This document shows, one piece after another, positions 10,218 to 33,481 of a DNA stretch of 33,832 nucleotides. Position 1 is the stretch's first letter. Each line of letters starts with the position of its first letter. The position numbers and the translations under genes are program-made. A model generated the notes under the pieces. It worked only from the letters and a program-made list of their open reading frames with translations. It ran no database searches and was not told the origin of the DNA. Source of the stretch: Actinomycetes bacterium (GTDB taxonomy: Bacteria > Actinomycetota > Actinomycetes > Jiangellales > Jiangellaceae); the NCBI GenBank assembly GCA_021793295.1, contig JAJYTA010000032.1, positions 1-33,832 on the forward strand. Direction: 5' to 3'.

Positions 10218-11225
10218 GTGGAACTCGGCGTGCGCAGTGTCGACCAGACCGTCTCGACCGGCGACCTGCCGGAATGGGATCGCGTCAAAGCGTTCGTCGA
10301 CCAGGCGTACCGGCACAGCCTCGACGTGCACGACGGCGCTGTCACCACCCGCATCCCGGCGCTGTCCCAGGCCGATCCCGATCTGTTCGGCATCTGTGTC
10401 GCCGAGGTGACCGGCCGCACGTACGGCGCCGGTGACGTCGACCACCCGTTCTCGCTGCAGTCGATATCCAAGGCGTTCGTCTACGCCCTCGTGTGCGAGG
10501 CCGTGGGTCACGACGTCGTGATGGACCGCGTGGGCGTGAACAACACCGGGCAGGCGTTCGACTCGGTCATGGCGATCGAACTCAACGACGGGCACCCGAT
10601 GAATCCCATGGTCAACGCCGGGGCCATGGCGACGACCGCCCTGGTGCCCGGCGACACACCCGAGGCCAAGTGGGCCTTCGTGCAACAGGGCCTGTCCCGG
10701 TTCGCCGGCCGCGACCTGCGTCTGGACAGCGAGGTCTACGCGTCGGAGGCCACGACCAATCAACGCAATCTGGCGATCGCGCGGTTGCTGGAGAGCTACG
10801 ACCGGCTCGACGTCGACCCGGTGGCCGTCGTCGACGTGTACACCAGGCAGTGTTCCCTCCTGGTCAACGCCCACGACCTCGCGGTGATGGGCGCGACGCT
10901 GGCCGACGGCGGCGTCAACCCGCTGACCGGCGAGCAGGTGGTACCCGCCTCGGCCTGCAACGACACCCTGGCGGTGTTGGCCACCAACGGCCTCTACGAG
11001 CGCTCCGGTGAGTGGCTGTTCGAGATCGGTGTGCCGGGCAAGTCCGGCGTCAGCGGGGGCATCGTCGCCGCGGCACCGGGCAAGGGTGGCATCGCGACGT
11101 TCTCACCCCGCCTGGACACCGCAGGCAACAGCGTCCGAGGGCAGCGAGCCACCGCCTTCTTGTCCCGCAGCCTGGGGCTGAACCTGTTCGCGTCCAAGGT
11201 CCATCCGCACAGCCGTCACCGGTGA
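10218..11225 (+). CDS. glsA: Glutaminase
   Basis: A 335-residue serine-dependent glutaminase that hydrolyses glutamine to glutamate and ammonia in the cytoplasm. The Ser-x-x-Lys catalytic motif is in [10 protein letters not shown] (Ser82, Lys85), followed by family segments [37 protein letters not shown] and [14 protein letters not shown]. Length is slightly above the usual 300-310. GTG 10218 has a G-rich ribosome site (GGGGG about 8 nt upstream). The stop codon overlaps the convergent miaB stop by 10 bp. It lies close to gluABCD, which imports glutamate, so both feed the same pool, though miaB intervenes and they are not an operon. Confidence 0.93.
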
Positions 11226-12754
11226 ACCGGCGCCACCTCGGTGCTCACGGCGCACGACACGCCCGCTCCGCCGCTGCCTTCGGACGCTGGCGGGACCCCG
11301 ACCGTCGGCATGCCGATCAGCACCCCCGGTGTCGACGGCGCCGTACCGCTCAACCGCTCGTAGGCGTCACCGGCCCGCGTGCGGCGCACCTCGAACGTGC
11401 CGCCCTGCCGGGCGGAATCGGCGACCAGATGGTGCGGTGCGGCGTAGGTGACGCCGACGGTGACCATGTCGCCGGGCCGCGGGACCTGGGCTTCCGCGGT
11501 GTCGTCGGGGACGGCGAAGTGCACGAGCCGGTTGTCTCGCGCTCGCCCGGACCAGCGGCGCGTCTGCCCGTCCTTGCGCCCCTCGCCCTCAGCGACCAGG
11601 ACCTCGACGTCGTGCCCGACCAGACGCTGGTTCTCCTGCCACGCGATGTCTTCGACCAACGCGGTCAACCGCTGGTAGCGCTCTTTGACGACCTCGGGAG
11701 GGACCTGGTCGTCCATGTCCGCCGCTGGTGTTCCGGGCCGCTTGGAGTATTGGAACGTGAAGGCCGAGGCGAACCGGGCTTCGCGCACCACGTGCAGGGT
11801 CTGCTCGAAATCAGCCTCGGTCTCGCCGGGGAAACCGACGATGATGTCGGTGGTGATGGCCGCCTCGGGTAAGGCTGCACGGACCTTCTCGACGATGCCC
11901 AGGTAGCGCTCTTGGCGGTACGAGCGCCGCATCGCCCGCAGCACGCGGTCGGAACCGGACTGCAGCGGCATGTGCAGCTGCGGCATCACGGCCTGCGTCT
12001 CGGCCATGGCGGCGATGACGTCGTCGGTGAAATCGCGCGGATGCGGGCTGGTGAACCGAACCCGCTCGAGCCCGTCCACAGCGCCCACCGCGCGCAGCAG
12101 CTTGCCGAAGGCGAACCGGTCACCGAACTCCACGCCGTAGGCGTTGACGTTCTGCCCCAGCAACGTCACCTCGACGACACCCTCGGCCACCAGCGCCTCG
12201 ACCTCGGCGAGCACGTCGCCGGGGCGGCGGTCGCGCTCACGCCCGCGCAGCGCCGGAACGATGCAGAACGTGCACGTGTTATTGCACCCGACACTGACCG
12301 CGACCCACGCGGCGTACGGGCTCTCGCGCTTGGACGGCAGGTTGGACGGGAAGACCTCGAGTGCCTCGGCGATCTCGACCTGGGCCTCCTGCTCGACCCG
12401 GGCCCGCTCCAGCAGCACCGGCAGCGAGGCGACGTTGTGCGTGCCGAACACGACGTCGACCCACGGCGCCCGCCGGACGATCTCGCTGCGGTCCTTCTGC
12501 GCCAAGCATCCGCCGACGGCGATCTGCATGCCCGGCGTCTTGGCCTTGACCGAGGCCAGGTGGCCGAGATTGCCGTAGAGCTTGTTGTCGGCGTTCTCGC
12601 GCACCGCGCACGTGTTGAGCACGACGACGTCGGCCGTGCTGTCGGCACTGGCCTGCTGATAGCCGGCGTCTTCGAGCAACCCGGCCAGCCGCTCGGAGTC
12701 GTGGACGTTCATCTGGCACCCGTAGGTGCGAACCTGGTACGTGCGCTCATTCAT
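11216..12754 (-). CDS. miaB: tRNA-2-methylthio-N6-dimethylallyladenosine synthase
   Basis: A 512-residue radical-SAM methylthiotransferase that adds the methylthio group to i6A37 in tRNAs reading UNN codons. The N-terminal cluster cysteines are in [15 protein letters not shown] and GGCLAQ; the radical-SAM CxxxCxxC is in [16 protein letters not shown]; a TRAM-type RNA-binding region follows near [14 protein letters not shown]. The C-terminal tail after the TRAM domain is a little longer than in E. coli. ATG 12754 gives the standard start [16 protein letters not shown]; a longer in-frame extension is not family-like. Divergent from gluA, convergent with glsA. In related genomes it is followed by the extradiol-like gene and miaA; here that link is broken. 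Confidence 0.96.
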
Positions 12755-12941
12755 GACCCGTCCAGGGTACGACGACACACCGACATGCGCCGCGCATGGC
12801 CACAGCCGCTGTCCGCGCACGGACATGACCGGCGGCGCACCGGGCGGTCACGGCCGCGTTGGCACCGTTGAGCTGCAGTCGTGTCCACTTCGTAACCCGA
12901 TCCTGTCCCATGTGGGCACAGCCCGCGGATAGGTTTCCTGC

Positions 12942-17016: not shown

Positions 17017-18597
17017 TCATACCTCCTGCAGCCCGGGGTGGCCCGCTTCGACCACGAAACTCCGGCGGGTCGATACCGGCGCGCCGGGCGTCGACACATA
17101 CGGGGCGACCCGGTAGTCCGAGCGCCACCGCCCACGAGTGACGTGACATCGCACGTAGCCGCGTTGTCCGTTGATGAACGCGAAGTGCGGATTGGTCTGC
17201 AAGTCGGTCGGAGCCCACCAGGGCAGGTCCGTGCCGTCACCGGCCGAGCTCACCGAGGTTCCGGCGAACTCCGAACCAAGGGTCGCGGAGTCCGGATCGG
17301 TGAAGTCGGCCTTGATGTCGGCCGCGATGTTCAGGTGGATGTCGCCGGTGAGCACGATGAAGTTGGGCACCGGCGCCTCGGTGACGGTACGCAGCACCCG
17401 CTCGCGAGAAGACGCGTATCCGTCCCAGGCGTCCATGCTGAACAGCTCCGGATCGCCGTCCATGGCCCATTGCGAGAAGAAAACCTGCTGGGCCAGGACG
17501 TTCCATCGGGTCTCGGCATCGGCGAGGCCCGCATGTAACCAGCGCTCCTGTTCGGCGCCGGGCAGGCTGCGCGCCGGGTCCCAGCGCTCGTCGCAGTCGC
17601 TGAGCCGTCCACCGCCACAGGCCGGCGCCGCTCGGAACTGACGCGTGTCGAGGACGTTGAACGTCGCGAGATCGCCGTAGGCGACGCGCCTGTACAGCCG
17701 CATGTCCGGGCCCTGCGGCAGGGCCCGTCGCCGCAACGGCATGTGCTCGTAGTAGGCGCGCAATGCCGCCGCTCGCTGGTCGCGAAAGGCCGACGGCGGA
17801 ACCTGGAGATTGGTCTCGTCCGCCCAGCTGTCCTGGACCTCATGATCGTCGAGCGTCGTGACCCAGGCGAAGGCTCGATGCGCAGCCTGCAGATCGGCGT
17901 CGGTGCGGTACAGCGCGTACCGGTTGCGGTACTCGGCCAACGTGCGGATGGAGTCGTCGCCCGGTTCGGTGCCCGGCTGCGGCCGGGGATAGTCCGGTCC
18001 GTACGAGGCGTACTCGTAGATGTAGTCACCGAGGTGGACCACGAGGTCCAGGTCTTCGGCGGCCAAGTGCCGGTAGGCGGTGTAGTACCCGGTCTGCCAG
18101 TCCTGGCAGGAGACGAAAGCGAACGGCAGCGCCGCCGGCTGCGCCCCCGGCTCGGGCAGCGTCCTGGTCCGGCCGGTGGGACTGACGTGGGCACCTAGCC
18201 GAAACCGATACCAGTACCACCGATGTGGCAGTAGTCCGTCGAGCTCGACGTGCACGGCGTGCGCGAACTCCGCGCGCGCCGGCGCCGTTCCGCGGCGCAC
18301 GATCGCTCGGAAGTGCTCGTCGGTTGCCACTTCGTATCGCACGGCGACCGGCTGCGGCGGCATCCCGCCGTGCCCGTCCTCGGCGAGCGGCTCCGGGGCC
18401 AGCCGGGTCCAGAGCACCACACCATCAGGACTCGGATCCCCTGAGGCCACGCCCAGGGTGAAGGGATCGTCGCGGGGCAGGCGCTGCGGTGCTGCCGCCA
18501 CCGGGCGGGCTCGTCGTTGCCCCAGGCTGTACAGCCCCACGGCCCCGCCAGCGCCAGCCAGCAATCCGCGACGCCCGAGCGTGAGCTGGTCCGCCAT
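17017..18597 (-). CDS. phoD: PhoD-family alkaline phosphatase/phosphodiesterase, Tat-exported
   Basis: A 526-residue secreted phosphoesterase releasing phosphate from organic esters. The N terminus has a twin-arginine signal (GRRGLLAG, Arg9-Arg10, then a hydrophobic stretch). A PhoD N-terminal beta domain spans about 42-145. The metal-centre motifs are FVSCQDW (Cys164), HLGDYIYEY (Asp191, Tyr192), LDDHEVQDSW (Asp250-Asp251-His252-Glu253) and a C-terminal VLTGDIHLN, as in Ca/Fe-dependent PhoD enzymes. ATG 18597 has AGGAGG 7 nt upstream. The C terminus (RSFVVEAGHPGLQ) is the normal family end, so it is not a truncated fusion. The FN3-F5/8C gene follows with overlap. A possible PHO-box lies upstream. 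Confidence 0.93.
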   Translation of the reverse strand: MADQLTLGRRGLLAGAGGAVGLYSLGQRRARPVAAAPQRLPRDDPFTLGVASGDPSPDGVVLWTRLAPEPLAEDGHGGMPPQPVAVRYEVATDEHFRAIVRRGTAPARAEFAHAVHVELDGLLPHRWYWYRFRLGAHVSPTGRTRTLPEPGAQPAALPFAFVSCQDWQTGYYTAYRHLAAEDLDLVVHLGDYIYEYASYGPDYPRPQPGTEPGDDSIRTLAEYRNRYALYRTDADLQAAHRAFAWVTTLDDHEVQDSWADETNLQVPPSAFRDQRAAALRAYYEHMPLRRRALPQGPDMRLYRRVAYGDLATFNVLDTRQFRAAPACGGGRLSDCDERWDPARSLPGAEQERWLHAGLADAETRWNVLAQQVFFSQWAMDGDPELFSMDAWDGYASSRERVLRTVTEAPVPNFIVLTGDIHLNIAADIKADFTDPDSATLGSEFAGTSVSSAGDGTDLPWWAPTDLQTNPHFAFINGQRGYVRCHVTRGRWRSDYRVAPYVSTPGAPVSTRRSFVVEAGHPGLQEV

Positions 18598-18630
18598 GGT
18601 CGAACCTCCTGAGCCTGGTCCCGCCGAACA

Positions 18631-18656
18631 GTTCAAGGAGCGTTCGTAAAATACGA
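18631..18656. promoter_or_regulatory. Possible PHO-box-like repeat and AT-rich palindrome upstream of phoD
   Basis: GTTCA at 18631 and GTTCG at 18642 are spaced exactly 11 nt, the repeat length of actinomycete PhoP boxes, though the rest of each unit fits poorly. Overlapping it is TCGTA-AAA-TACGA (18644-18656), an AT-rich inverted repeat, rare in this GC-rich DNA. Together they likely mark the phoD control region. Confidence 0.35.
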
Positions 18657-18706: not shown

Positions 18707-20341
18707 TCAGCGGGCGAACTCGGTGGAACGAGACTCGCGGACGACGGTGATGCGGATCTGGCCGGGGTAGGTCAGCTCCTCTTCGACCTTCTTGGCGATG
18801 TCTCGAGCCAGCACCTGCGCCTGGATGTCGTCGACGACGTCGGGCAGCACCATGACCCGGATCTCGCGGCCGGCCTGCATGGCGAACACCTTCTCCACGC
18901 CTTCGTAGCTCATGGAGATCTCTTCGAGCCGCTCCAGCCGCTTCACGTAGGCCTCGAGCGATTCGCGCCGCGCGCCCGGGCGCCCGCCGGAGATGGCGTC
19001 GGCCGCCTGGGTCAGCACCGCCTCGACGGTGCGCAACTCGACCTCGTTGTGGTGGGCCTCGATGGCATGGATCACGTCGTCGTTCTCGCCGTAGCGCCGC
19101 GCGATCTCGGCGCCGATCAAGGCGTGGCTGCCGTCGACCTCGTGCGTGAGCGCCTTGCCGATGTCGTGCAACAACGCGCACCGCTTGGCGAGCTTGATGT
19201 CCATGCCGAGTTCGCCGGCCATCATGCCGGCCAGGTGCGCGGACTCGATGAGGTGCTTGAGCACGTTCTGCCCGTACGACGTGCGATAGCGCAGCCTTCC
19301 CAGCAGGGCGACCAGGTCGGGGTGCATCTCGGAGATGCCGACCTCTACCAGGGCGTCCTCCCCCGCACGCACGCACAGCGCCTCGACCTCGGCCTTGCTC
19401 TTCTCGTACTGCTCCTCGATCCGGTGCGGATGGATCCGCCCGTCGAGCACGAGTTCCTCGAGCGTGAGTCGGGCCACCTCGCGCCGGACCGGATCGAAGC
19501 AGGACAACAACACCGCTTCTGGGGTGTCGTCGATGATCAAGTTCACGCCGGTGACCTGTTCGAACGCGCGGATGTTGCGTCCCTCGCGGCCGATGATGCG
19601 GCCCTTCATCTCATCGCCGGGCAGGTGCAGCACCGAAACGACCGATTCAGCGGTCTGCTCGGAGGCCAGCCGCTGGATCGCCAACGTGATGATCTCGCGG
19701 GCCCGGGCCTGGCCGTTCTCTTGCGCCTCCCGCTCGATGTCGCGGACCAGCAGGGTCGCCTCCCGCTTGGCCTGCTCTTCGACTGAGGCGATCAGTTCGG
19801 CCTTCGCCTGATCGGCGGTGAGCTGAGCCGCGCGTTCGAGGATCTCGCGGCGTTCGGCCTCGAGGTTGTCCAACTCGACTTTGCGGGCTTCGAGCGCGGC
19901 GAACTGCACCTCGAGCTCCTGCTCGCGTTCCTCGAGACTGCGCGCGTCGGCGTCGACACGCTCTTCGCGCTCGACGACTCGCTGCTCGCGCCGTTCGAGG
20001 TCGGCGCGTTGATCGCGCAGGTCGGCCCCGAGTTGATCGGAACGCTTCCGCGCCTGCTCAGCGTCGGACGTCGCTTTGGCCCGCATCTCTTCGATCTCGG
20101 CCAGGGCCTTGGCCTTGAGTTCGTCGACCTCACGGCGAGCTTGCGCACGCGCCTCGTCAGCGTCGGTTTGCGCCGCGGCGCGCAACTTGATGGAGTCGGC
20201 TTCCACCTTCGCCAGCGCATCCGATGACTCCGCGCGTCGCGCCTCGACACCGCGCAACTTCGCGAACATGCTGACCAGCGCCACGACAAGCAGCACGACG
20301 ATCAACGACCCGACGATCAGAATTGCCGTTCCGGTGTCCAT
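18707..20341 (-). CDS. rny: Ribonuclease Y
   Basis: A 544-residue membrane-anchored endoribonuclease that starts mRNA decay. Layout: an N-terminal helix (ILIVGSLIVVLLVVALVSMFA), a long charged coiled coil to about 200, a KH domain with GRIIGREGRNIRAFEQVTG, then an HD domain with the metal-binding His-Asp in LLHDIGKALTHE, and the conserved C-terminal region. Length is close to the 520-residue family standard. ATG 20341 has a GAGGGAG ribosome site 7 nt upstream. It sits in the recA-recX neighbourhood as in many actinomycetes. A promoter about 290 nt upstream implies a long leader that may be regulatory. Confidence 0.95.
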   Translation of the reverse strand: MDTGTAILIVGSLIVVLLVVALVSMFAKLRGVEARRAESSDALAKVEADSIKLRAAAQTDADEARAQARREVDELKAKALAEIEEMRAKATSDAEQARKRSDQLGADLRDQRADLERREQRVVEREERVDADARSLEEREQELEVQFAALEARKVELDNLEAERREILERAAQLTADQAKAELIASVEEQAKREATLLVRDIEREAQENGQARAREIITLAIQRLASEQTAESVVSVLHLPGDEMKGRIIGREGRNIRAFEQVTGVNLIIDDTPEAVLLSCFDPVRREVARLTLEELVLDGRIHPHRIEEQYEKSKAEVEALCVRAGEDALVEVGISEMHPDLVALLGRLRYRTSYGQNVLKHLIESAHLAGMMAGELGMDIKLAKRCALLHDIGKALTHEVDGSHALIGAEIARRYGENDDVIHAIEAHHNEVELRTVEAVLTQAADAISGGRPGARRESLEAYVKRLERLEEISMSYEGVEKVFAMQAGREIRVMVLPDVVDDIQAQVLARDIAKKVEEELTYPGQIRITVVRESRSTEFAR

Positions 20342-20412
20342 CGACCGGCTCCCTCACGTGTAGCTGTCTGCGAACAGACTTATTCAACGGTGGGAACCGC
20401 ACTGCGACCGCA

Positions 20413-20433
20413 CTCACTTGCCCAGGAAGTGAG
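20413..20433 (-). other. Hairpin in the rny leader
   Basis: CTCACTT and AAGTGAG form a perfect 7-bp stem with a 7-nt loop. On the minus strand it falls at the very end of the small leader ORF, including its stop codon, about 70 nt upstream of rny. It lacks a T-run. A second small stem, GTCTG-cgaa-CAGAC, lies nearer rny at 20366-20379. Confidence 0.45.
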
Positions 20434-20578
20434 CTTCGTTCACCGAATCACTGAAATCGAGTCTGGATCGACCGTGTGATGCCAACGCGCCACGTCCGCA
20501 AGGCTGTGAACTCGCTGCATACCACTGAGGCCAGCGGAAAGCCGGCCTCGGTGACGTTTCGGTGTTGGGTGTTGCCAT
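20414..20578 (-). CDS. Possible small leader ORF upstream of rny
   Basis: A 54-residue open frame (begins MATPNTETSPRPAFRWPQWY, ends VNEAHFLGK) inside the predicted rny leader. It has no clear ribosome site, and I recognise no family. Its stop lies in the hairpin at 20413-20433. It could be a real small protein, a regulatory leader peptide, or chance. Base composition here is less GC-biased than in surrounding genes, which argues that the stretch is mainly a leader. Confidence 0.25.
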   Translation of the reverse strand: MATPNTETSPRPAFRWPQWYAASSQPCGRGALASHGRSRLDFSDSVNEAHFLGK

Positions 20579-20630
20579 GGTGTCTATGTCCGATCCGCGG
20601 TCGCGGAGTTGTTCTCCACCTTTTATGTTG

Positions 20631-20659
20631 AGATTACGTAAGGGTGTACGAGGGGTCAA
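20631..20659 (-). promoter_or_regulatory. Promoter of rny
   Basis: On the minus strand TTGACC (20659-20654), a 17-nt spacer and TAATCT (20636-20631) form the best sigma-70-type promoter in the 382-bp gap between recX and rny. The predicted start near 20624 leaves a leader of about 283 nt. Confidence 0.65.
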
Positions 20660-20723
20660 GGTGACACGGCGGCGCCCACATCGCGCCACCGCTGCGCTTC
20701 ACCACCCGTTGTTCAGCTGGTGG

Positions 20724-21302
20724 TCATTCGTCGATGTGTTCGGCTGGTAGGTCGCTTTCGTCCACCCCCTCAGCCTCCAACGCTTCACGCACGACTCGAT
20801 AGGACAGGCCGGCCGGGTAACCCTTGCGCGCCAGCATCCCGGCCAGTCGCCGAGTCCGTGCTGCCGGATCGAGCCTGCGGGTACTGGGCAACCGCCGGGC
20901 CACGAGCGCACGCGCCATGGCTTCCTCCTGCTCCGGCTCCAGCGCCTCGACGGCCTCGTCGGCCACCTTCGGGTCGACGCCTCGCTGCCGGAGCTCGTGC
21001 CCTAAGGCACGCTTGGCCAGCCCACGGCCGTTGTGCCGCGAGTCGACCCAAGCCTGGGCGAAGGCTGCATCGTCGATCAGGCCGACATCGGAGAACCGGT
21101 CGAGGATGGCGCCGCGGACGTCGTCGGGTACGCCCTTCTTCGTCATCGCGACATCGAGCTGTGCCCGTGTCTGCGGGGCTAGCGAGAGTCGTTGCAGCAC
21201 GATGGAGCGCGCTACCGACTCAGGGTCGGGCTCCGGTTCACCCGATGGCGACGGAGCCGAACCCTCAGCGGATTTCGACGTGCGCCCGGCCCTGCTGCCC
21301 AT
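20724..21302 (-). CDS. recX: RecA regulatory protein RecX
   Basis: A 192-residue modulator that binds RecA filaments and limits recombination activity. The family pattern of three-helix repeats is visible: ARSIVLQRLSLAPQTRAQLDVAMTKKGVP, FAQAWVDSRHNGRGLAKRALGHELRQRGV and RTRRLAGMLARKGYPAGLSYRVVREAL. The first 25 residues are low-complexity Ser/Pro/Glu-rich, normal for actinobacterial RecX. ATG 21302 has a weakly placed GGAGGG upstream. It follows recA by 69 bp and is probably cotranscribed, so damage induction of recA would raise recX too. Confidence 0.92.
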   Translation of the reverse strand: MGSRAGRTSKSAEGSAPSPSGEPEPDPESVARSIVLQRLSLAPQTRAQLDVAMTKKGVPDDVRGAILDRFSDVGLIDDAAFAQAWVDSRHNGRGLAKRALGHELRQRGVDPKVADEAVEALEPEQEEAMARALVARRLPSTRRLDPAARTRRLAGMLARKGYPAGLSYRVVREALEAEGVDESDLPAEHIDE

Positions 21303-21371: not shown

Positions 21372-22421
21372 TCAGAAGTCGACCGGCACCTCTGCCGCCG
21401 GTGCCTCGCCGGACGCGTCGGCCTTGGGGCCAACCCCCAGCTTCTCCTTGATCTTCTTCTCGATCTCGTCTGCGAGGTCGGGGTTGTCCTTGAGGAACTT
21501 CCGGGCGTTCTCCTTGCCCTGGCCGAGCTGGTCGCCCTCGTAGGTGTACCAGGCGCCGGACTTGCGCACGATGCTCTGTTCCACCCCGAGATCGATCAGG
21601 CTGCCCTCGCGGCTGATGCCCTCGCCGTAGACGATGTCGAACTCGGCCTGCTTGAACGGGGGGGCCACCTTGTTCTTCACGACCTTGACCCGGGTGCGGT
21701 TGCCTACGGCTTCGGTGCCGTCCTTGAGCGTCTCGATGCGCCGGACGTCGAGGCGGACCGAAGCGTAGAACTTCAGCGCCTTTCCACCGCTCGTCGTCTC
21801 GGGGCTGCCGAAGAACACGCCGACCTTCTCACGCAGCTGGTTGATGAAGATCGCCGTCGTCTTGGACTGACTCAGCGCACCGGCGATCTTGCGCAGCGCC
21901 TGGCTCATGAGCCGTGCCTGCAGACCGACATGGCTGTCACCCATCTCGCCCTCGATCTCAGCTCGCGGCACCAGCGCGGCGACGGAGTCGATGACGATGA
22001 TGTCCAGCGCCCCGGACCGGATCAACGTATCGGCGATCTCGAGTGCCTGCTCACCGGTATCGGGCTGGGAGACCAGCAAGGAGTCGGTGTCGACCCCCAG
22101 CGCCTTGGCGTAGTCGGGGTCGAGCGCGTGCTCGGCGTCGATGAAACCGGCCACCCCTCCGGCACGTTGCGCGTTGGCCACCGCATGCAGCGCCACCGTC
22201 GTCTTACCGCTGCTCTCAGGGCCATACACCTCGATGACCCGCCCGCGCGGAAGTCCGCCGATGCCGAGGGCGACATCGAGCGCGATCGCCCCGGTGGGAA
22301 TCACCTCGACCGGCGCGCGCGCCTCCTCACCCAGACGCATCACCGAGCCTTTACCGAACGCGCGCTCGATCTGAGCGAGCGCAGTATCGAGCGCCTTCTC
22401 ACGGTCTGCGGAAACTGCCAT
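21372..22421 (-). CDS. recA: Recombinase RecA
   Basis: A 349-residue DNA strand-exchange ATPase and co-protease for LexA. It starts [20 protein letters not shown] and has KGSVMRLG, Walker A GPESSGKT, the Walker B-like [12 protein letters not shown], loop L1 [19 protein letters not shown] and L2 [22 protein letters not shown], with an acidic, Ala-rich tail. No intein is present, unlike in some mycobacteria. ATG 22421 has AGGTGG 6 nt upstream and gives the standard length. An in-frame ATG at 22475 would add 18 basic residues and lies within 2 nt of the predicted start of the PafBC-type promoter. A LexA box sits further upstream. Confidence 0.98.
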
Positions 22422-22483
22422 GGGAACCACCTGGGGTCGACGGGCCGGCGTGCGACCCTGTGATCGTTTGTTCATCACCCGTG

Positions 22484-22506
22484 ACGTTACGCGGTGCCAC
22501 CGACAG
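22484..22506 (-). promoter_or_regulatory. PafBC-type (RecA-NDp) damage promoter of recA
   Basis: On the minus strand CTGTCGGTG (22506-22498), then exactly 8 nt, then TAACGT (22489-22484) fits the published mycobacterial RecA-NDp pattern tTGTCRgtg-N8-TAnnnT except for the first base. That promoter class is driven by PafBC independently of LexA. The predicted start is near 22477. Confidence 0.7.
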
Positions 22507-22563
22507 CTTCGAGGGCCTCTCTGCAAGCTGTGGATAACCTCGGCGACCGGGTCATGATGGCAC

Positions 22564-22584
22564 CTTATACCGAACGAGTGTTCG
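22564..22584 (-). promoter_or_regulatory. LexA (SOS) box and distal recA promoter
   Basis: CGAACGAGTGTTCG (22571-22584) is a perfect actinobacterial LexA box, CGAAC-N4-GTTCG. Directly next to it on the minus strand is TATAAG (22569-22564), a good -10 element, so LexA would sit in the -35/-10 spacer and block initiation. The leader to ATG 22421 would be about 135 nt. Confidence 0.85.
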
Positions 22585-22634
22585 ATCACGAACGACACGC
22601 CGACCAGCCGCCGTGACCGTCGCACGCCCCGCAG

Positions 22635-32071: not shown

Positions 32072-33481
32072 TCAGCGTGCGGTTGCGACCAGGTCGACGC
32101 CGTCGTTGCCGACGACGACTGCACGCACGACGTCACCGACACCGGCCCGCACACCCCGAACGGTCGTGCAACCGTCGACCTCCGGGCCCTGATGCGCTGC
32201 GCGGCCCTGCACGCCGTCGCCGTCGACCGACTCGATGAGCACCTCGACTTCAGAGCCCACGCGGTCCTCGGCGCGCTGGTCGACCAGGTGCTCGACGAGA
32301 TCGTTGAGGCGCTCGACGCGTTCGTCGATCTCGTCCAGGTCGATCTTGTCGGGCAGGTCGGCTGCTTCGGTGCCGTCCTCGTCGGAGTAACCGAACACGC
32401 CGACGACGTCGAGCTTCGCGCGGGTGAGGAAGTCTTCGAGCTCCTCGACGTCGTCTTCGGTCTCACCCGGGAATCCGACGATGACGTTCGAGCGGATGCC
32501 GGCTTCGGGCGCACGATCGCGAATCGAGGCGATGAGCTCGAGGAACGACTCCGTGGAGCCGAACCGGCGCATCCGCCGCAGCAGTGGTGCGCTGGCGTGT
32601 TGGAACGACAGGTCGAAGTACGGCACGACGCCCGGGGTGGTGGTCATCGCCTCGACCAGGCTCGGGCGCATCTCGGCCGGCTGCAGATATGACACCCGGA
32701 CCCGGTCGATGCCGTCCACGGCGGCCAGCTCGGGCAGCAGGGTCTCGAGCAGGCGCAGATCGCCGAGGTCCTTGCCGTACGAGGTGGAGTTCTCGCTGAC
32801 CAGGAACAGCTCCTTCACCCCGGTACCGGCCAACCAGCGCGCATCGGCCAGCACGTCGGCCGGCCGGCGGGACAGGAAGGCGCCCCGGAAGGCGGGGATG
32901 GCGCAGAACGTGCACGCGCGATCGCACCCGCTGGCGAGCTTGACCGGCGCCACCGGAGCGCCGTCGAGGCGGCGGCGCAGCGTACGCGGCCCGGACGCGG
33001 GCGCGACGCCGTCGGGCAAGTCCGCCACGACTGGGGCACCCGCCGCGGCTTGCCGCTCCACCGGGCTGACCGGCAGCAGCTTGCGCCGGTCCTGTGGCAC
33101 ATGCGGGACGTGCCGCTCGCCGTCGAGAATCCCACGCAGCCGCTGGCCGATGGCGGCGTAGTCGTCGAAGCCGAGCACGGCGTCGGCTTCGGGAAGTTCG
33201 TCGGCCAATTCCACGCCGTACCGCTCGGCCATGCAGCCCACGGCGACGACGGCCTTGGTGGCGCCGCCGGACTTGAGGTCGGCGGCGGCGAGCAGGGAAT
33301 CCACCGAATCCTTCTTCGCCTGCTCGACGAACCCGCAGGTGTTGACCAGAACCGTCTCAGCCGCGGCCGGATCGTCGACGAGTTCGAAGCCGTCGGCGTC
33401 CAGGCGGCCCGCCAGCTCCTCGGAGTCCACCTCGTTGCGGCTGCAGCCCAGAGTGACGATGGCGACGGAATGCTTGGTCAT
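32072..33481 (-). CDS. rimO: Ribosomal protein S12 methylthiotransferase
   Basis: A 469-residue radical-SAM enzyme that methylthiolates an aspartate of ribosomal protein S12. Auxiliary cluster cysteines are in [19 protein letters not shown] and VGCMAERYG; the radical-SAM CxxxCxxC is in [26 protein letters not shown] and [13 protein letters not shown] are family-typical, and a C-terminal TRAM domain follows [13 protein letters not shown]. It differs from the paralogous miaB at 11216 by the FVEQAKKDS motif, which marks RimO. ATG 33481 has no strong ribosome site. It lies downstream of ftsK with a 47-bp gap. Confidence 0.95.

Follow-up and report, generated by a model that had tools for sequence, protein, structure and literature searches.

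A conserved, structured leader of the RNase Y gene in actinobacteria, with a candidate long-range clamp that may tune RNase Y synthesis

In many bacteria, the decay of mRNA is initiated by RNase Y. For Bacillus subtilis, a published account (PMC10303841) describes an rny mRNA that is autoregulated by RNase Y, the enzyme cutting its own message mostly early in the ORF and in the first 50 nt of the 5' UTR; this UTR is 160 nt long and its first 50 nt are 76% A+U. In E. coli the rne, pnp and rnc mRNAs are autoregulated as well, as is that of rnc in S. coelicolor (PMC3997798), and a survey of 104 motifs (PMC2864571) lists a rne-II motif for Pseudomonadales; the term rny is absent from the main text of that survey. 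In the open-access literature we found neither a study of RNase Y control in actinobacteria nor a description of an actinobacterial rny leader, a search by which descriptions elsewhere could be missed.

The leader analysed here belongs to the same gene as that of B. subtilis and likewise lies in the 5' UTR, its 5' end being placed from the promoter; in our proposal only, it would also share a cut near the 5' end beside a stem-loop and the logic of feedback. It differs in its length of 282 nt, in the composition of its first 50 nt, which at 42% A+U (21/50) are not A+U-rich, and in a predicted long-range pairing of its 5' and 3' parts (the clamp, below), of which the consulted part of the B. subtilis account (PMC10303841) makes no mention. 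Like the E. coli rne 5' UTR and rne-II of Pseudomonas, it is a structured leader on the mRNA of a decay-initiating endoribonuclease, although the enzyme and the sequence are different and the leader stands upstream of rny, not rne. An analogy with the RNase E leader, drawn in a first-pass annotation of this DNA, therefore holds for function and not for family: no rne leader family of Rfam matches. With the E. coli pnp and rnc leaders it has in common a long duplex, here predicted and interrupted, which in this case is long-range and overlaps an alternative hairpin. The structured rny leader is real and, in the literature searched, undescribed so far, and its predicted 5'-3' clamp is unusual for the leader of a ribonuclease mRNA; how it acts is our inference.

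The window, by which we mean the whole stretch of 33,832 nt that was analysed (contig JAJYTA010000032.1), comes from a genome of the Jiangellaceae (family f1 in our numbering) in a genus other than Jiangella, and the closest named relatives of its RNase Y are those of Jiangella (81-85% identity). The gene rny (18707..20341, minus strand) encodes 544 aa with RNase_Y_N, KH_1 and HD domains. Reading along the minus strand, the order is recA (ORF at 21372-22625), recX (20724..21302), a gap of 382 nt, and rny, and the gap contains a promoter, TTGACC-N17-TAATCT, followed by a leader of about 282 nt. The distance from recX to the projected rny start ranges from about 0.2 to more than 2 kb across loci L003-L111, with the conserved 5' element described below staying near rny; in some species, genes or insertions may lie between recX and the rny promoter. 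Within the class Actinomycetes the gene is patchy, occurring in 124 of 393 sampled genomes (E<=1e-60). Propionibacterium acnes, for which dRNA-seq data have been published (PMC3848588), is another carrier of RNase Y. The genome of the window also encodes RNase III, RNase J and RNase E/G, the sole RNase E/G gene detected sitting on contig C307. On the other side of rny, a PhoD-like phosphatase ORF (17017-18636, minus strand; exact start uncertain) begins about 70 nt past the rny end, between rny and a MiaB-like gene. The window holds two UPF0004/radical-SAM proteins (11216-12826 and 32072-33481, both minus strand, the second with a TRAM_2 domain), which we take to be of the MiaB/RimO type.

The rny promoter (20631..20659, minus strand) consists of a -35 box TTGACC at 20659-20654, a 17-nt spacer and a -10 box TAATCT at 20636-20631. 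TTGACC and TAAYCT are kept in all 14 aligned Jiangella-type leaders, and the strict pattern CTTGACC-N15..18-TANNCT recurs in 29 of 60 rny-upstream regions taken from other actinomycete genomes, where shuffled sequences give a mean of 0.02 per 60; a looser form is found in 39 of the 60 (shuffle mean 1.4). A consensus promoter scanner reported no promoter above its threshold, the -10 box being poor by E. coli standards, and it is by its conservation that we judge the promoter real. The first-pass annotation had placed a promoter at these positions and a leader of about 283 nt behind it, and both are borne out: the transcript would start near 20623, which gives 282 nt. In Jiangella or Microbispora, the start would be expected at the purine run preceding GGUGGAG or GUGAGGAG. 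Comparison of the leaders supports a promoter that fixes the 5' end about 280 nt ahead of rny. The pattern is absent from the six f38 regions and the single f30 region, and among five f28 regions it occurs once, at L200, beside the projected start and lacking a recognisable element. It is also missing at L150, L152, L154, L160, L166, L167, L169, L191, L201 and L202; of these pattern-negative loci, L152 and L154 show a looser promoter together with what may be an element, the element is present at L202, and at L191 a covariance model (R2, below) places the element just outside the region. The promoter spacer (20653-20637 in the window) is conserved within groups, as GUACACCCUUACG in Jiangella and as a UUACCU-type sequence in Streptosporangiales, which exceeds the needs of a plain promoter.

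The promoter and the first ~40 nt of the leader (AAAGGUGGAGAACAACUCCGCGACCGCGGAUCGGACAUAG in the window) are better conserved than any other part of the upstream alignment, being nearly invariant in the 14 Jiangella-type leaders, where the middle of the leader is variable. This 5' element (20584..20623, minus strand) runs from the inferred start to AUAG and comprises the purine-rich GGUGGAGAAC, a hairpin (stem I) and ACAUAG. Further downstream in the same 14 leaders, a second conserved block, GCGGUCGYGGUGCGGUUCCC, is followed by GUGAGGGAGCC before the start codon. Most Streptosporangiales loci have a related element, AGUGAGGAGUUACUCCGCGnnnCGCGGAUUGCCAUA, some 120-235 nt ahead of the projected rny start, and more distant forms occur downstream of the same promoter type in other families.

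We scanned the 393 actinomycete genomes with two covariance models of the 5' element, R1 (42 sequences) and R2 (33 sequences), which were built partly on leaders of the scanned species, so that the scan measures specificity and not recall. All 39 R1 matches at E<=2e-3 are upstream of rny on the same strand, 134-361 nt from the aligned part of rny, and among the eight weaker matches a further one, in G070, is likewise upstream of rny, at 584 nt; in the genome of the window itself, the next-best R1 match has an E value of 0.75. With the stricter filters that the large scan required, R2 missed the window and the leaders of Jiangella, all of which R1 recovered. At E<=2e-4, 56 of 60 R2 matches lie upstream of rny, three elsewhere, and one is L208; between E 2e-4 and 0.009 there are 14 further matches, one of them upstream of rny. 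Together, the two models place a match upstream of rny in 73 of the 124 rny-bearing genomes and in none of the remaining 51, a count that excludes R2 rows weaker than E 0.009, two of which (G043 and G197) are also upstream of rny. L208 is in our judgement an rny leader divided over two contigs, since in this genome the match to rny begins at base 22 of a different contig; at L208 itself recX lies upstream, the contig ends within a membrane-anchor-like ORF and tblastn finds no rny. The R2 matches L205, L206 and L207 and the weaker match L209 were rejected as rny leaders, with tblastn finding no credible rny or recX match nearby (ORFs were inspected around L205 and L206). The rny leader is a conserved, structured and rny-specific RNA in many actinobacteria, as judged from its sequence. 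The first-pass annotation had made its reading depend on conserved structure, and at this level it stands, with a leader that is long, structured and rny-specific behind a conserved promoter and has a predicted 5' end. With a conserved, single-copy RNA element linked to rny in several families, the control of RNase Y becomes testable with simple reporters, and the leader is a candidate RNA family for annotation.

Three short stems had been called in the leader from the window alone, and all three exist: stem I (UCCGC/GCGGA, 20594..20607), stem II (CUCACUU/AAGUGAG, 20413..20433) and stem III (GUCUG/CAGAC, 20366..20379), all on the minus strand. The comparison across relatives that had been suggested for them separates the three, with stems II and III covarying within Jiangellaceae and stem I giving no clear covariation. 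In stem II, 99% of cells are paired over the 12 of 14 Jiangella-type leaders counted, with seven two-sided compensatory cells (as many in 0/2000 shuffles); in stem III, 98% are paired over 10 of 14, with three such cells (6/2000 shuffles). Both stems were chosen from hairpin calls and are hence biased towards structure, and the rows left out of these counts are in-stem duplicates and, for stem II, L013, which has a different register. RNAalifold on a separate MAFFT alignment recovered stem II, one pair of which shows a two-sided change; it did not call stem III there, and paired the 5' arm of that stem with the Shine-Dalgarno region. A GCCC/GGGC stem occupies the position of stem III, between the anti-element (below) and the Shine-Dalgarno region, in five of six Phytoactinopolyspora-type leaders. 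In the predicted fold of the window leader, stem II has a probability of 0.88-0.98, stem III of about 0.9 and stem I of 0, since a long-range helix takes the arms of the last. Stem I lies inside the first 50 nt and can form locally, is mutually exclusive with the inner helix of the clamp, and gives way to the clamp when the whole leader is folded.

As a covarying hairpin stem I was not borne out: its arms hardly vary in 42 leaders, the loop alone changing in length, and this near-invariance is why no clear covariation appears. In the 33-sequence alignment of several families, the outermost pair is the only one with two-sided changes (five cells; as many in 86/500 shuffles), with rows L159 and L026 read as out of register. 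These two carry variant stems, CCACC/GGUGG (L159) and GCCCGG/CCGGGC (L026), whose hairpins are modestly above shuffles (p = 0.09 and 0.02, respectively), and a hairpin of the stem I type reaches p<=0.05 in 24 of 52 leaders scored, those without the AUA motif being skipped.

A 54-codon ORF that had been noted in the leader is present (20414..20578, minus strand) and does end in stem II, and is not conserved. In the other 13 Jiangella-type leaders the frame has 38, 44 (with a GTG start), 43 or 28 codons, with ACG at the start position in two, and in six Phytoactinopolyspora-type leaders no start codon was found at the tested place, where the alignment is uncertain. Control through this ORF or through an 11-codon GTG ORF within the element could be entertained for the window, where both frames are open; given that the longer frame is of variable length and lacks its start codon in two relatives, and that the GTG frame reads otherwise in leaders of the Phytoactinopolyspora type and has an altered stop in Actinomadura, we regard a leader peptide as scarcely credible. 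Both ORFs were rejected as the frames are not kept, and the longer one is judged not functional.

A block that lies a short way upstream of the Shine-Dalgarno sequence, at 48-71 nt ahead of the start codon in the window, shows complementarity to the 5' element. In this anti-element (20389..20412, minus strand), GCGGUCG (20411-20405) can pair with CGACCGC (20603-20597) and CCACC (20393-20389) with GGUGG (20620-20616). RNAalifold, unprompted, paired the 5' element of the Jiangella-type leaders with the second conserved block over 21 pairs, with no two-sided change, and a duplex search of the element against its leader selected the anti-element block in all 16 f1 leaders. In 15 of 16 Jiangellaceae leaders and 20 of 27 of the Streptosporangiales type, no more than 5 of 100 shuffles equalled the energy of the duplex. 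Since a comparison of duplex energy with shuffles tells nothing for most long GC-rich leaders, we turned to cross-pairing, on the reasoning that a genuine pairing should make each element fit the leader it belongs to better than any other. For the 91 leaders ranked (four with less than 60 nt downstream were dropped), the own pairing fell in the top 5% relative to leaders of other families in 14 of 16 f1, 23 of 29 f17 and 5 of 46 other leaders.

Within families, for the 60 of 70 leaders with an assigned start codon, element and anti-element co-diverge in f1 (z = -2.9), f17 (z = -6.1) and the Streptosporangiaceae-type leaders (z = -4.6); the signal is only -1.5 in the six Phytoactinopolyspora-type leaders and absent within the Actinomadura-type (z = 0.6) and within Jiangella plus the window (z = -0.3). 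Cross-pairing keeps shared ancestry in, which makes its p-values optimistic. Over 24 pairs, 88% of cells can form in the 36 distinct rows of the Streptosporangiaceae type, as compared with 27-61% when the strands are slid; shuffled letters pair equally well (88.1%), so that there is no excess covariation, because the element hardly varies. Single-row changes in the element are each accompanied by a unique compensating change in L063 and L090, and are uncompensated in L087, L096 and L107. Family f18 gave no significant co-divergence in any of four settings, and 25 leaders of other families gave p = 0.004, 0.005, 0.17 and 0.05 in four settings; outside f1 and f17, the case for the clamp is weak. 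These comparisons support co-divergence of the 5' element and anti-element in Jiangellaceae and Streptosporangiales, consistent with a long-range helix, and thereby a 5'-3' clamp in which the first ~30 nt can pair with the anti-element and enclose the variable middle and stem II.

That the promoter and positions +1 to +40 are conserved together could also reflect DNA alone, that is, a promoter with an operator or an initially transcribed sequence, for which the dyad of stem I might serve. The spacing of that dyad is variable, an anti-element some 200 nt downstream co-diverges with the element, and stems II and III covary, all of which make an explanation at the level of DNA highly improbable.

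The clamp is an interrupted helix, of 21 pairs in the Jiangella type and 24 in the Streptosporangiales reference L045. Duplexes of this length, a gene for RNase III in the genome alongside those for RNase E/G and RNase J, and the autoregulated rne, pnp and rnc mRNAs mentioned above would suit RNase III as the main actor, cutting the clamp as it does the duplexes of the E. coli pnp and rnc leaders, with decay of the processed mRNA setting the level of RNase Y; the helix is broken by mismatches, however, and we consider this unlikely. In the fold of the window the inner clamp helix has a probability of about 1.0 and the outer half of 0.49. The outer end (GGUGG in f1, GUGAGG in f17) is paired far downstream with a probability of at least 0.5 in 9 of 15 f1 and 8 of 14 f17 leaders, and has a probability of 0 in some single-sequence folds.

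The outer half has a competitor. In the Shine-Dalgarno region GUGAGGGAGCC (20347..20357, minus strand), GGGAGCC (20353-20347) can pair with GGUUCCC (20398-20392) of the anti-element, which would cover the Shine-Dalgarno sequence at the expense of the outer clamp half. The predicted energies of the two states in the window are -116.1 (outer clamp) and -116.2 kcal/mol (Shine-Dalgarno sequestered), and across the 16 f1 leaders the states are -9.7 to +3.4 kcal/mol apart; in several Streptosporangiales leaders the anti-element CCCCUCGCG can in the same way fit GCGAGGAGGGG. Folds so nearly equal in energy, together with a 5' element of near-invariant primary sequence, might suggest riboswitch-like sensing of another trans factor, be it a small molecule, a protein or an sRNA. 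Against this, the leader is tied to an RNase gene and we saw no large conserved aptamer-like core. Nor did Rfam give a match above chance: there was none in the whole window at gathering thresholds (rne 5' UTR, rne-II and riboswitch classes included), only a CRISPR-repeat family far below its gathering score for the leader at a relaxed threshold of E<=5 (E = 1.1), and none at relaxed thresholds in four other loci. We rate such sensing as very unlikely.

The best partner of the Shine-Dalgarno sequence overlaps the anti-element in 8 of 16 f1 leaders (3.6 expected) and 24 of 43 f17 leaders (15.2 expected), that is, at 1.6-2.2 times expectation, and does not overlap it in a duplex search of the window. 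Anti-element and Shine-Dalgarno sequence do not co-diverge significantly within f1 or f17 (p = 0.25 and 0.34), and do so only across both families jointly (z of about -3.1). When full-length leaders are compared with leaders truncated at the 5' end, the predicted mean accessibility of the Shine-Dalgarno sequence is 0.41 versus 0.43 in 16 f1 and 0.32 versus 0.27 in 44 f17 leaders, the full-length form being the more accessible in 12 of 16 and 30 of 44, respectively. A translational switch through pairing of the anti-element with the Shine-Dalgarno sequence is on these predictions plausible but weakly supported. That truncation leaves accessibility almost unchanged, and that the 5' end lies within the clamp, would equally fit a fold that only stabilises the mRNA, its sequestered 5' end protecting it from 5'-dependent decay with neither feedback nor switch; as this would account neither for the invariant alternative hairpin in the 5' element nor for the link of the fold to rny, we think it quite unlikely.

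We place about even confidence in reading the rny leader as a cis-regulatory RNA, conserved and structured, that tunes RNase Y synthesis post-transcriptionally, most likely by feedback, the tuning being inferred from the comparisons above and the feedback helped by the published case of B. subtilis rny and the autoregulation of rne, pnp and rnc. As long as the 5' element is attached, the outer clamp half would hold a pyrimidine-rich block otherwise able to cover the Shine-Dalgarno sequence, and the 5' end would be shielded. Excess RNase Y might cut the leader at the AUAG beside hairpin I or in the variable middle, upon which the 5' element would be lost, translation would drop and the mRNA would decay. 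By analogy with the systems described, RNase Y autoregulation through the leader is plausible; that RNase Y, and not another RNase, would be the enzyme that cuts is the least certain step. The leader would be a small natural model of how a long-range RNA fold could sense that a 5' end has been lost. A more specific form of this proposal, which we hold tentatively and regard as doubtful, has the 5' end of the rny mRNA act as a Shine-Dalgarno mimic that holds an anti-Shine-Dalgarno block, so that an RNase cut between the two would remove the mimic and stop translation; if true, the leader would read out RNase activity in several actinomycete orders, with the enzyme as its own ligand. Many leaders of family f18 (L173, L185, L193 and others) carry a second conserved motif, approximately AACUUCACACG, some 10 nt past the AUAG of the element.
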